In this document: piece by piece, positions 3,223 to 59,678 of the stretch
Numbering within the stretch: the stretch's first letter is position 1
Layout: each line of letters starts with the position of its first letter
Assembly (NCBI RefSeq): GCF_000230715.2
Contig: NC_019792.1
Coordinates: forward strand, 2,294,001 to 2,358,000
Source: Natronobacterium gregoryi SP2
GTDB lineage: Archaea; Halobacteriota; Halobacteria; Halobacteriales; Natrialbaceae
Reading direction: 5' to 3'
DNA length: 64,000 bases
Notes under the pieces: generated by a model
Databases searched by the model: none
Told to the model about the DNA's origin: nothing
The model's input: only the letters and a program-made list of their open reading frames with translations
Position numbers and translations under genes: made by a program

Positions 3223-3316
3223 GACTCATACGGACTGCTGTCCCGCTGTCCCGGCGCGACCGAAGGCGGGCTCGCGGTCGCGCCGGCACTGACGGACAGC
3301 AAACCGTCTCATACGG
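3223..3316. repeat. Palindromic repeat family 2, copy 1
   Basis: A compound palindrome lying between two tandem minus-strand genes. The core is a perfect 12-bp stem, CCGGCGCGACCG pairing with CGGTCGCGCCGG, with a 10-base loop. Outside it are imperfect arms: TACGGACTGCTGTC on the left and GACAGCAAACCGT on the right, ending in CATACGG. The same structure occurs at 19147-19228 and 51171-51256, and a right half at about 59736-59756. The rest of 3097-3390 shows no gene. Confidence 0.8.
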
Positions 3317-17969: not shown

Positions 17970-17988
17970 CGCAAATCTTCGATTTGCG
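17970..17988. terminator. Perfect hairpin after the rhodanese gene
   Basis: CGCAAATC-TTC-GATTTGCG is a perfect 8-bp stem with a 3-base loop, 55 bp past the rhodanese stop. No U-run follows. It could help end transcription or be a protein site; the assignment is inference. Confidence 0.35.
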
Positions 17989-18097
17989 TCAACACCGTGG
18001 CCGCGACGGATACGTCCCAGCTGGTGACCGTCTCGACTGCCAAACTGTTGCACTGGTAGGTGTCTCGGCTATGCACACTGGGGACGTGGTTCGTACT

Positions 18098-18721
18098 ATG
18101 AGTTCTGGATACACGCACAGTGTAGCGGACTTTGGCACGCGGTCGCTCCTAACCCACGGTATCATGGGCCTCTCGCTCTCGAGTGCGATCGCAGCGGGAC
18201 TGTTCGTCGACGGCCAACTCGGACTGGTCTCGTTTGTCGCACTGTTGAACTTCACTGCTGGCGTGTGGATCGCCCAGTCGATCCACTCGGTCGGGAACGC
18301 ACGATCTGGCGGTAGTTACGACGGCGTTCTGTCGGTGCTACGCGATACGACTGGCGAGAGACAGTTCAACGGTCTCGACACGGGCCGGCTAGCTCGTCTC
18401 CTGACGCTGATCGCGGCCGTGACCGCGGTCTCGCTCTTGACGGCCGGACAAGTGCTCTCAGGTGCGCTCGTTTCGATCGCTATCGTCGCAATCGGAAGCA
18501 TCGCTCTCGTGACCGCGATGACCGGTTTCCTGATTGCGCTCGGGTCGTCCTACGACGCAGCAGAACGCCGTCGACTCGAGGCCGTTGACGGAGCCGAGAC
18601 CACGGTTGAAGAGCCGGCAACGGAGCCATCGCCGATCGGCCTCGAAGCTGACTTCGACGAAACGTCGACGGTCGAAATCCCGATCCGGGACCCGTCTGTC
18701 GAGGAGCGATCCCGACGCTAG
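18098..18721 (+). CDS. Membrane protein of unknown function
   Basis: A 207-residue protein with four predicted helices: about 16-35, 40-58, 98-116 and 120-145, followed by a charged acidic tail (residues 150-207, including VEEPATEPSPIGLEADFDET) likely cytoplasmic and disordered. No named family recognised. Start is taken at ATG 18098 (MSSGYTHSVADFG); an in-frame ATG at 18071 would add nine residues. Its TAG stop codon is part of the CTAGT that opens the first palindromic unit at 18718, so the repeat array abuts or has redefined the gene's 3' end. Confidence 0.7.
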   Translation: MSSGYTHSVADFGTRSLLTHGIMGLSLSSAIAAGLFVDGQLGLVSFVALLNFTAGVWIAQSIHSVGNARSGGSYDGVLSVLRDTTGERQFNGLDTGRLARLLTLIAAVTAVSLLTAGQVLSGALVSIAIVAIGSIALVTAMTGFLIALGSSYDAAERRRLEAVDGAETTVEEPATEPSPIGLEADFDETSTVEIPIRDPSVEERSRR

Positions 18722-18806
18722 TGGCGGGCCAAGCCTGAACTAATGGGTCGAATCTGGCGGTGTCGCTCGGTTCGACCCGTCAGTCCACACTTGGGACAGT
18801 ACTAGT
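18718..18806. repeat. Palindromic repeat family 1, unit A
   Basis: An 89-bp imperfect palindrome bounded by CTAGT on the left and ACTAGT on the right. Inner stem GGGTCGAA/TTCGACCC; outer arms CCAAG/CTTGG. It overlaps the stop codon of the preceding gene and shares its right ACTAGT with unit B. A copy of its right arm is present at 59485-59510. Confidence 0.8.
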
Positions 18807-18890
18807 ACTCCGCCAAGCGTCGACTGCTGAGTGAAACCAGACGACCGCATTCGGTTTCACTCATCCGTTCAGGCTTGCCAAAGCACTAGT
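18801..18890. repeat. Palindromic repeat family 1, unit B
   Basis: A 90-bp unit between ACTAGT boxes. Inner stem GAGTGAAACC pairs with GGTTTCACTC (10 bp), different in sequence from units A and C but in the same position, so base pairing is kept while the sequence changes. Outer arms CAAGC/GCTTG. A nearly identical unit lies at 59505-59594. Confidence 0.82.
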
Positions 18891-18974
18891 GGCGGGCCAA
18901 GCCTGAACTGATGGGTCGAATCTGGCGGTGTGGCTCGATTCGACCCGTCAGTCGACGGTTGGGACGCTACTAGT
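18885..18974. repeat. Palindromic repeat family 1, unit C
   Basis: A 90-bp unit between ACTAGT boxes, very close to unit A on its left half. Inner stem GGGTCGAAT/ATTCGACCC (9 bp), outer CCAA/TTGG. Its reverse complement, with few differences, is the unit at 59589-59678. Confidence 0.82.
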
Positions 18975-19047
18975 GACTGTCTAAAGCCGATGTGATCGGT
19001 CGGACCCGGTCGTGTCGGCCGGTTCGACGCTCGAGTCGACGCTTGAG
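18969..19047. repeat. Diverged palindromic unit D of family 1
   Basis: Begins at the ACTAGT closing unit C and keeps the layout AAGCC...GATC...stem...CGAC...GCTT. The inner stem is GTCGGACC/GGTTCGAC with one G-T pair. No closing ACTAGT is seen, so this copy is degenerate or truncated. Confidence 0.5.
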
Positions 19048-19146
19048 CTTTTACCGGTCGAGCCACCGCTCTCGTCTACCGGTCCTGCCTACGTCTCGGC
19101 GTCTGCGAGTCCTCGCGCGAATCACTCGCGTCGTCTTCGACCGTCG

Positions 19147-19228
19147 CTTCATACGGGTTGCTGTCAGTCAGTTCCGGCGCGACCGCAGGAGCGCGCGGTC
19201 GCGCCGGGACATCGACAGCACTTCCATA
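19147..19228. repeat. Palindromic repeat family 2, copy 2
   Basis: Core stem CCGGCGCGACCG/CGGTCGCGCCGG, perfect 12 bp with a 10-base loop. Left arm TTCATACGGGTTGCTGTC and right arm GACAGCACTTCCATA are partly complementary. It lies about 100 bp after the family 1 array and just upstream of the asparagine-synthase-like gene. Confidence 0.78.
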
Positions 19229-51170: not shown

Positions 51171-51256
51171 GACTCATACGGACTGCTGTCCCGATGTCCC
51201 GGCGCGACTGCAAGAGCGCGCGGTCACACCGGAACTGACCGACAGCAAACCGTATC
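51171..51256. repeat. Palindromic repeat family 2, copy 3
   Basis: Lies between convergent mutS and osmC. Core stem CCGGCGCGACTG/CGGTCACACCGG, now with two mismatches and one G-T pair relative to the other copies. Outer arms TACGGACTGCTGTC and GACAGCAAACCGTA. Its right end supplies the osmC stop codon (TGA on the minus strand, 51255-51257). Confidence 0.78.
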
Positions 51257-57216: not shown

Positions 57217-58216
57217 CGCTCTTGTGAAGGACATTGTTGGTGAGTCAGAGAACAGTTCGAACGATGTCTTTCAGGGCTTTTCGACCGGGTTTGCGTAGGA
57301 TTTTCCGACGAAATTCGAAGAGTCTGAGATACGTGGTGAGTTTGTCCTTCGAGATACCTCGATGCGGCGAGAGCCACCGTCGCGCCAGCGACGCGTGGCT
57401 CTCGCACGTATTCACGTGTACATCTCCATCAACGTACTCTCCCTCGCCGTGAATAACCGCTTCTCGCTGGTACGTTTCGTCCGTCTCTAACGGGTCGTAG
57501 GCACGAAAGCCGTCGGTATAGACTGTCAGCGACTCCTCCTCGTGGGAATCGAGGAGGAGTCGCACAGCCGATTCGTCGGCGGATTTCGACGGGATGACGT
57601 ATCGCTGATCGCTACCGCGATCAACGAGGACAAACACAGGTGGCTTGTCTTCGTCGTAGTTTCCTCTGCCACGTTTCGAGAGACCACGCGAGCGCGACTC
57701 CTGGTCGCGCTCGCGGCCTTTCTTTCCGGCAGAAACGTAGAACTCATCGATCTCGACGGGGCCAACGAGATCGAGCTGAGGCGCGTCGAGCGTTCTGGCG
57801 AAACGCTCGACGCGCCGGTGAAGCGATCGGTAGGAGACGTCGATTTCAGCGTCTAACTGGCGGATACTCGTGTTGAATCGGAGCAACGAGTAGAACGCGA
57901 ACAACAGCTTGTCAAGGCCGATCTTCGCGTGCGCGAAGATCGTGCCGGTCTTGTCGTTGAACGTGCGTCCACAATTTTTACAGCGATACCGCTGATACTC
58001 TCGATAGCTGCCGTACTTGATCACCGATTCAGACTGGCAGCGCGGGCACTGGAGGCCCTCGCGCCAGCGAACCTGCTCCAGCAGGTTCGCGGCGCTCGCC
58101 TCTGAGCGAAACACTTCAACTGGGAACATAGTCGGGTGGTGCTGACGCATCACCCTTGCCCGCTACGCTTTCACAGCGCCAGCTCTGTTCGACCAACAAT
58201 CTGCTTCCGAAGAGCG
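57217..58216 (-). mobile_element. Intact IS1595-family insertion sequence, 1,000 bp
   Basis: Imperfect terminal inverted repeats: CGCTCTTGTGAAGGACATTG at 57217 and, in reverse complement, CGCTCTTCGGAAGCAGATTG from 58216, followed by GGTGAGTCAGAG and GGTCGAACAGAG. The single gene fills the element. No matching 8-bp target duplication is seen: the flanks are CCCGAGTT and AAGAACAT, so the element may have been rearranged after insertion. Confidence 0.8.
57245..58153 (-). CDS. IS1595 family transposase
   Basis: A 302-residue transposase. Residues 36-61 form a zinc ribbon with C36, C39, C58 and C61. An HTH region follows (KLLFAFYSLLRFNTSIRQLD), and the DDE-like catalytic domain starts at VEIDEFYVSAGKKG, with VYTDGFRAYDPL and VNTCESHASLARRWLSPHRG as later blocks. 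IS1595 (ISH4-like) enzymes use a DDNK/E motif, and these blocks supply the acids. The frame is uninterrupted, so the transposase may be functional. Start is one of the two ATG codons at 58153/58150. Confidence 0.88.
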   Translation of the reverse strand: MMRQHHPTMFPVEVFRSEASAANLLEQVRWREGLQCPRCQSESVIKYGSYREYQRYRCKNCGRTFNDKTGTIFAHAKIGLDKLLFAFYSLLRFNTSIRQLDAEIDVSYRSLHRRVERFARTLDAPQLDLVGPVEIDEFYVSAGKKGRERDQESRSRGLSKRGRGNYDEDKPPVFVLVDRGSDQRYVIPSKSADESAVRLLLDSHEEESLTVYTDGFRAYDPLETDETYQREAVIHGEGEYVDGDVHVNTCESHASLARRWLSPHRGISKDKLTTYLRLFEFRRKILRKPGRKALKDIVRTVL

Positions 58217-58265
58217 AAGAACATAAATAGAATCCTGAAAAGTATAGATTAGAATATAATTGAGT

Positions 58266-58457
58266 ATGTCAAAAATCAATTTTAATTACCCAGAAGGAGT
58301 GTTTTTAATATTAGGTGTTGTGCTAATGGTGACTCCAAGATATATACTTCCAGTTTTTGGATTTAACCAGCAACCATGGACACCAATAGTGATATATGTT
58401 GGTGCAGCTATGATATTTATAGGGATATTCATCACAATTATAAATAATATCAGGTAG
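58266..58457 (+). CDS. AT-rich mini membrane protein
   Basis: A 63-residue reading, MSKINFNYPEGVFLILGVVL first, with two helices (about 10-28 and 39-60) joined by a Pro-rich turn GFNQQPWTP. The DNA is much richer in A and T than the rest of the window and uses Asn, Lys and Ile codons rarely seen around it. This marks foreign origin. It lies between IS sequences. Function unknown; it could be a passenger of a mobile element. Confidence 0.5.
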   Translation: MSKINFNYPEGVFLILGVVLMVTPRYILPVFGFNQQPWTPIVIYVGAAMIFIGIFITIINNIR

Positions 58458-58685
58458 TATCAGGTACGAACAAGACCCATTGCAACGTTTGCTAACTTCA
58501 TCCCACAATCGGCACTCAGGTCCGCTTCTATACACCGCGAGCCACTCGATGACTGACTTGTTTCGACCAAAACGACGGTGACCCTGTCAAAATTGAGTAT
58601 CTATCAGAAGAGACGCGCGATAGACGAGAACCAGTTGAGAGTAAATTAGATCGGTTCTCGAGGCGACTGTCCGAAGAGTGGCTAC
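58458..58685. other. Mosaic DNA between IS remnants
   Basis: No gene start is supported. A short plus-strand reading KIEYLSEETRDRREPVESKL then DRFSRRLSEEWL from about 58590 looks protein-like and may be the tail or body fragment of a broken gene. I cannot assign it to a family. Confidence 0.35.
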
Positions 58686-59027
58686 TCAGAGAAGACCTTT
58701 CTCCTGTGCTTTCCAGGGCTGTCCCTCCCGGAGAAGTCTTAACAGACGCTCTTGTTCCTCGTCACCGAGCTTCAGGGGTCTGCCGCCCCCGAAGTTCGGT
58801 GTCAACTGCCCAAGTCCGCCATCGTTCCACCGACGTTCCCAGCGACTTCCAGTCGACGCAGATTTGCCAACGTCATCGGCTGTTTCCTCGTACGTTGCGC
58901 CCTTGTAGAGGCGTTTGACAAAGGAGAACCGCTTGATGATCTTTGGATCGTCTTCTTCGTCCAGCAGACGATCCAATTCCTCCTCACTCAGATGACGACC
59001 GAGATCGCCTCGCCGGTCGCCTCCCAA
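58686..59027 (-). pseudogene. Truncated IS630-type transposase (HTH part only)
   Basis: The reading HLSEEELDRLLDEEDDPKII, KRFSFVKRLYKGATYEETAD, DVGKSASTGSRWERRW and NFGGGRPLKLGDEEQERLLR is the N-terminal helix-turn-helix region of haloarchaeal IS630-type transposases. It stops at QPWKAQEKGLL where intact proteins continue into the DDE domain, which is missing. At the start, the frame runs back only to a TTG; an ATG upstream (59061 or so) is out of frame. So both ends are damaged. Confidence 0.75.
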
Positions 59028-59072
59028 TACTCGCCCATCTCAGTCCATGCCCATAACTTCCGTCATTCATTA

Positions 59073-59210
59073 CAGCAGGTTCGCGGCGCTCGCCTCTGAG
59101 CGAAACACTTCAACTGGGAACATAGTCGGGTGATGCTGACGCATCACCCTTGCCCGCTACGCTTTCACAGCGCCAGCTCTGTTCGACCAACAATCTGCTT
59201 CCGAAGAGCG
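59073..59210 (-). mobile_element. Duplicated right end of the IS1595 element (138 bp)
   Basis: Bases 59073-59210 repeat 58079-58216 without indels and with one base changed (GTGATG for GTGGTG in GTGATGCTGACGCATCACC). This holds the terminal inverted repeat and the first 25 or so codons of a transposase, cut after SAANLL. A second IS1595 copy must have existed here and been deleted, or the end was copied by recombination. The near-identity shows the event is recent. Confidence 0.85.
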
Positions 59211-59424
59211 TACTATTACTGAGGGTTGTGGGGAGGATAGCCTAGTTAAATACTATTAGACTGTCTCAATGCGGATCTACCGCTTTCAGTCTTCCTGGCG
59301 GGGCAATCCAGCCAGCGCAAGACGCTTCAGACACCACTATAACCACGACCGACCAAATCAAGCGCTCAATGGCCGAACACCAGCTAAGCAGGTGCTGAAC
59401 TAGTAGTGCCCCAAGTCTACTCTG
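59211..59424. other. No supported gene; unassigned DNA
   Basis: A minus-strand reading ends SAIERLIWSVVVIVVSEASC, AGWIAPPGRLKAVDPH, perhaps an old transposase fragment, but no family is recognised. The first ACTAGT of the second palindrome cluster appears at 59399-59404. Confidence 0.35.
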
Positions 59425-59510
59425 ACTAGTACGCTCTACTCCTGATCGAAAGTCGTGATCGGTTTGGGCCAACTCTCAACCAGTCGGTCCACACTTGGGA
59501 TAGTACTAGT
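59425..59510. repeat. Palindromic repeat family 1, unit E (chimeric)
   Basis: An 86-bp segment between two ACTAGT boxes. The right third (CGGTCCACACTTGGGATAGT) matches the right arm of unit A. The left two-thirds differ. It looks like a hybrid or decayed unit. Confidence 0.6.
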
Positions 59511-59594
59511 ACTCCACCAAGCGTCGGCTGATGGGTGAAACCAGACGACTGCATTCGGTTTCACTCATCCGTTCAGGCTTGCCAAAGCACTAGT
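59505..59594. repeat. Palindromic repeat family 1, unit B copy
   Basis: A 90-bp unit nearly identical to unit B at 18801-18890. Stem GGGTGAAACC/GGTTTCACTC, where one A-T pair has become a G-T pair. Left and right ACTAGT are shared with the neighbours. Confidence 0.82.
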
Positions 59595-59678
59595 ACCGTC
59601 CCAACCGTCGACTGACGGGTCGAATCGAGCCACACCGCCAGATTCGACCCATCAGTTCAGGCTTTGCCCGCCACTAGT
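59589..59678. repeat. Palindromic repeat family 1, unit C in reverse orientation
   Basis: A 90-bp unit that is the reverse complement of unit C (18885-18974) with few differences, so its orientation relative to unit B is opposite at the two loci. Stem GGGTCGAAT/ATTCGACCC kept. Ends in ACTAGT at 59673-59678. A right half of palindrome family 2 (CAGCAAACCGTCTC) follows at 59742-59755. Confidence 0.82.

Follow-up and report, generated by a model that had tools for sequence, protein, structure and literature searches.

MITEPsy1, an element of Pseudomonas syringae pv. phaseolicola, duplicates the tetramer CTAG at insertion, according to the portion of PMC3189936 drawn on here. The same tetramer is of importance for two insertion sequences, IS630, for which TA within CTAG is the preferred insertion point (Tenzen and Ohtsubo 1991, as cited in PMC2170065), and IS870, which needs CTAG for completing its stop codon (as cited in PMC6471742). 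In haloarchaea, depletion of CTAG is already known from statements in PMC6471742 and PMC3119063, and the latter source also reports 'SwitchRepeats' in Haloquadratum, whose orientation at a given position is reversed from one strain to another.

The locus considered here belongs to Natronobacterium gregoryi SP2, a haloarchaeon whose genome is a single contig of 3,788,356 bp. It lies in a stretch of 64,000 nucleotides, hereafter the window, and consists of an array of short palindromic units, one of which is inverted with respect to its counterpart in another array of the window. Our reading, to which we give a probability of about 0.83, is that the units are MITE-like small mobile palindromes which target CTAG and leave CTAG on both sides, and hence pile up, and that the enzyme moving them acts in trans.

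Two arrays in the window

A preliminary description had set an array made of unit E, unit B and an inverted unit C against one at 18.7 kb with the order A, B, C. The features of both loci, including the flanking parts of another palindromic repeat, F2, are as follows.

59399-59678: whole array, E (plus), B (plus), C (minus), from the annotation of the window
59399-59510, plus strand: unit E, period of ~106 nt, with internal boxes (ACTAGT at 59425 and a degenerate ACCAGT on the opposite side)
59505-59594, plus strand: unit B, 94% identical to 18801-18890
59589-59678, minus strand: unit C, in reverse compared to the 18.7-kb locus, 98% identical to 18885-18974
59400-59403, strand not given: left outer CTAG, taken as a target copy
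59674-59677, strand not given: right outer CTAG, taken as a target copy
about 59393-59399, plus strand: short left F2 remnant, from the alignment of the joined flanks to F2
59678 to about 59736, plus strand: right part of the split F2
18718-18806, plus strand: unit A, variant of C (91%), from unit comparison
18718-18721: outer CTAG of unit A, holding the TAG stop of the ORF at 17984-18721
18801-18890, plus strand: unit B of the first array
18885-18974, plus strand: unit C of the first array
18970-19058, plus strand: probable decayed fourth unit, 65% identical to unit A in register, absent in a congener (G003)

The order and orientation given in the preliminary description are confirmed by the unit coordinates and strands, and the near identity of B and of the inverted C to their 18.7-kb counterparts holds at 94% and 98%. 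The start that it gave for the array, position 59425, is a box internal to E; full copies of E elsewhere begin 26 nt earlier, which brings the start to 59399. Its ACTAGT junctions stand as far as the contacts between units are concerned, since neighbouring units of this array overlap by exactly 6 nt, i.e. by ACTAGT, but the boundary motif is CTAG, the sole part kept at the outer ends of arrays. At 18.7 kb three units are present, as it said, but its 'A' belongs with C as a 91% variant, and beyond the three lies a probable decayed fourth unit (18970-19058). At the corresponding locus of the congener G003, the same TAG stop codon is followed directly by the downstream sequence, without array. 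Since the tetramer reads TTAG there and not CTAG, a base change must also have happened at this site.

The array at 59399-59678 is flanked by a chlorite-dismutase-like gene and adjoined by nested insertion-sequence remnants (57245-59210 of the window). These include an IS1595-type transposase ORF at 57245-58153, an IS630-like N-terminal fragment at 58686-59027 and a 138-nt direct repeat (58079-58216 and 59073-59210), the end of which matches the IS1595-type terminus found in another stretch of the genome (L116).

The unit family and its CTAG boundaries

Around unit matches, 75 stretches were fetched and annotated jointly with the window; together they contain 113 arrays comprising 234 unit matches, of which 202 are full length, these counts being biased to unit-rich places. 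Searches of the genome with the units gave 40-50 places per unit type among the matches listed. The pattern ACTAGT-N60-85-ACTAGT has 128 matches per strand genome-wide compared to 4 for the reversed control, some of them contributed by the internal boxes of E, and the end motif CTAGT-R-S-N4-S-CAA-S is found 432 times in the N. gregoryi genome compared to 0-23 times in each of 60 relatives. The genome thus carries hundreds of such units, and the scarcity of the end motif in relatives indicates that the family was amplified within the lineage of the species.

Three types can be distinguished, all non-coding: C/A and B of ~84 nt and E of ~106 nt, with a mean identity to the consensus of 96% for C, 97% for B and 95% for E. 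All are imperfect full-length palindromes with ends reading T-N6-(C/G)CAA, and every unit folds into a single long imperfect hairpin. The two arms differ, one having GCCTGAAC and the other CGTCGAC, and this difference is conserved between B and C and across genera, which suggests that the two unit ends are recognised differently. Units of other genera share the end architecture, and arrays in G024 also have the 6-nt overlap. Empty E shells, which might have marked E as a nested insertion, were looked for and none was found. An Rfam search of the window gave no family match at gathering score, i.e. no known structured RNA. Viral contigs scanned with two end patterns and phage records searched for units gave no match, and four haloarchaeal plasmid records match B or C.

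There are 13 copies of ACTAGT in the window for 5.1 expected, a number reached in 0 of 100 shuffles, and exactly 6 nt are common to neighbours at 118 of the 121 junctions. At the outer ends of arrays CTAG is retained in 166 cases out of 197 while the next base outward varies (A 72, T 53, G 45, C 27); the excess of A is probably in part a sampling effect, one search having required ACTAGT. Since CTAG is kept outside while the next base varies, the unit proper is T...A and the target CTAG, and ACTAGT consists of A (unit end), CTAG (target copy) and T (unit start), as results when two units meet across one CTAG. Both CTAG cores are exact in 64 of 86 arrays, as in the target-site duplication of a MITE, with an ambiguity as to its exact length: TA, CTA/TAG and CTAG are inseparable because the flanking letters are identical. 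The tetramer is otherwise rare, at ~0.52 per kb outside units in the fetched stretches, and in the window it is found 33 times (units included) instead of the ~214 times expected from base composition.

The orientation of neighbours is the same at 63 junctions and opposite at 58 (121 junctions, p = 0.72), and such randomness is expected from insertion into a palindromic target. Nearly every pair combination of units occurs, and the 27 three-unit arrays display 24 combinations of order and orientation. Neighbours of the same type are nevertheless rare, 9 versus 43 expected, a value as low as this being obtained in none of 20,000 shuffles, and so are units of the same type at the next-but-one position (8/41 versus 20.9 expected, P = 5e-5). 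Such avoidance would be produced by target immunity as well as by like copies recombining homologously and being lost.

Further evidence is provided by F2, a second palindromic repeat of ~83 nt (TACGG...CCGTA), one version of which carries CTAG close to the left end. Copies without interruption, in which this CTAG is single, are found in L070, L071 and L115, while F2 is split at its CTAG by arrays in L100, L110, L064, L049 and L119, and by the array at 59399-59678 in the window. For each of these, joining the flanks with one CTAG gives again a continuous F2 alignment, and intact F2 copies thus serve as empty sites for the units. For species-level empty sites with a pre-existing CTAG, no exact case was found (G003 has TTAG). 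Where the surroundings of the array sites in L065 are comparable, the congeners are without array, and downstream of the chlorite-dismutase-like gene there is no unit in Halobiforma nitratireducens or H. haloterrestris.

The F2 palindromes constitute a second mobile family, with positions at L173:3171-3300, L073:2263-2395, L189:5545-5630 and, following the stop of cld, in L191 and L192. F2 sits inside two copies of unit C, with TGA on either side, and in three other Natrialbaceae records it begins right where the chlorite-dismutase-like gene ends, at its TGA stop. At 3223-3274, 19146-19197 and 51171-51222 of the window there are further repeats, dispersed and with CATACGG-CTGCTGTC, which are probably F2 relatives lacking CTAG.

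As to gene context, the figures come from approximate calls of a simple codon-usage gene predictor in stretches that are not a random sample. Most arrays lie between genes in tandem or convergent arrangement, and divergent gaps are under-used (8/81 versus 74/345). At 30 of the 98 array ends facing a gene 3′ end, that of the 18.7-kb array included, the TAG stop of the neighbouring gene lies in the boundary CTAG. Unoccupied CTAG sites of the same stretches are stop codons in 15 cases out of 239 and 102 of them are inside genes; the occupied CTAGs are thus sites where insertion harms little. In L104, L058 and L081 the stops of the two convergent genes are both preserved within the flanking CTAGs, three cases of little weight because one side consists of predicted ORFs of 63-84 aa.

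Mode of insertion and rival explanations

A unit inserts at CTAG in either orientation and CTAG is left on each side, as is shown by the ends common to the units, the CTAG bounding the arrays, the empty sites, the randomness of orientation and the copy number in the genome; each insertion thus creates a new CTAG. According to the mechanism that we propose, because the tetramer is depleted and is doubled by every insertion, later units would frequently land at the ends of units already in place, and adjacent units would then have A+CTAG+T, i.e. ACTAGT, in common; the box common to neighbours would be a by-product of adjacent insertions. The array at 59399-59678 would most simply result from three insertions into the CTAG of an older F2 palindrome, with C reversed. 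That units insert independently at ACTAGT ends had been one of two suggestions of the preliminary description. Its core is supported by the occurrence of nearly all pair combinations, by the random orientation, and by the CTAG at outer ends and empty sites; what has to be amended is the target, CTAG instead of ACTAGT.

We infer that the units came in one by one and that a single trans-acting enzyme is involved, probably a DDE transposase such as those of IS630/Tc1 or IS5, with a CTAG/TA preference. For a MITE of the IS630/Tc1 type, the CTAG target fits, TA being inseparable from CTAG, but the ends of the genome's IS630 elements do not match those of the units. More generally, neither an autonomous element nor a transposase matching the units was found among the six multi-copy IS groups of the genome, whose ends do not match, and in the stretches sampled; twelve further stretches yielded additional units, with no longer element among those having such ends. 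One candidate for the autonomous partner, the IS630 lodged in an IS1595-type element (L116), was rejected, its ends (TAATGAGTGACAG / CTTGATCATTA) being unrelated to the units. The IS1595-type element itself, at L116:2692-4846 and split by this IS630, lies within a unit E, of which ~9 nt are repeated on both sides. Another insertion sequence, present in three copies and encoding a 447-aa DDE_1 transposase (L173-L175), has the ends CATCCGTTCTAG / CTAGAACGGATG with CTAG inside the terminal repeat; no link to the units was seen.

The other suggestion of the preliminary description was site-specific inversion, i.e. a recombinase flipping single units between ACTAGT boxes. It would account for the occurrence of both orientations and for the exact ACTAGT junctions, but no switch is needed to obtain an orientation that is random over 121 junctions, as for insertion into a palindromic target. 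Furthermore, an invertible element has a fixed content with only its orientation varying, whereas order, type and number of units vary across loci; inversion leaves this variation in order, content and copy number unexplained, as well as the single units with CTAG-only outer ends and the splitting of F2 at CTAG, and we hold it for very improbable. Homologous recombination between like units could have chiefly reshuffled the arrays after a few founding insertions, and the depletion of same-type neighbours is what one would expect if like copies recombine and drop out. It cannot, however, make units at new CTAG sites all over the genome or split F2, and the junctions are exact, so that this process is quite unlikely to be the main one.

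One might also see REPIN-like elements in the units, moved by a Y1 single-strand transposase (RAYT/IS200-type) that would recognise the hairpin and CTAG. Hairpins of 80-110 nt in high copy number, their location in intergenic gaps and the conserved asymmetry of the arms all go in this direction, and the Y1 mechanism can also give a target on both sides without duplication. But this genome, which has by far the most units, gave only three partial Y1 hits, one of them with an internal stop, and none of the Y1 loci read in relatives has a unit beside the gene; we therefore consider such an origin unlikely. Functional elements maintained by the host, such as transcription terminators or mRNA 3′-end hairpins, would agree with the preference for tandem and convergent gaps over divergent ones (8/81 versus 74/345). 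However, avoidance of genes and promoters is expected of any tolerated insertion, the copy number is species-specific and the checked sites are not common to congeners, which makes a host function in place of mobility highly improbable. Insertion into CTAG by a trans-acting enzyme remains our preferred reading, and only a speculation may be offered about the rarity of like neighbours: self-stacking modular repeats with type exclusion would amount to target immunity on elements of 84-106 nt, possibly through an undescribed haloarchaeal recombinase reading the asymmetric hairpin and CTAG (perhaps its methylation), an idea that we find doubtful.

Comparison with known systems

A single rule would explain the flipped module: an element that doubles its own rare target stacks on itself and on its relatives. 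The many arrays would then be a natural record of insertion events, and in a species that underwent a recent burst, the mobiliser of small haloarchaeal repeats can be put to the test. The units are also of relevance to the CTAG depletion known from haloarchaea, and they show that insertion at a stop codon can leave a gene intact. Within the open-access literature searched, no description was found of three unit types stacking via a regenerated rare target.

Among known systems, REPINs resemble the units as short, palindromic, mobile and intergenic elements in high copy number (from the portion of PMC3116915 relied on). In both cases two palindromic arms in inverted arrangement make up a single hairpin located between genes; the units differ in that the genome has no intact cognate Y1 (RAYT) transposase. 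REP sequences bear end tags such as GTAG, and these tags are not common to the units. IS630 and IS870 differ from the units by encoding a transposase, and the two multi-copy IS630 groups of the genome have unrelated ends.

The SMR-A and SMR-B repeats of Haloquadratum walsbyi come closer. As described in the relevant part of PMC3119063, they are 80-110 bp long, present in high copy number and located in the palindromes of other repeats, with inverted repeats bearing no relation to known transposons and a mobiliser called enigmatic. The units agree in size, copy number, setting and insertion into palindromes of another repeat; their inverted repeats match none of the six multi-copy IS groups compared, and no mobiliser was found for them either. 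Where they depart is the target: according to that part of PMC3119063 SMRs do not duplicate it, and neither CTAG targeting nor combinatorial arrays are mentioned there, whereas the units have CTAG on both sides and the CTAG is single in array-free F2.

By their short length (84-106 nt), absence of coding capacity, hundreds of copies, complementary arms and CTAGT...SCAA ends, the units are like MITEs. MITEPsy1, compared here by its description, differs by having a likely parent, ISPsy2, and multi-type arrays are not described for it in the portion of PMC3189936 considered. It is similar in being a non-coding element of 100 nt with terminal inverted repeats, which inserts at and duplicates CTAG (or YTAA) (same portion of PMC3189936).
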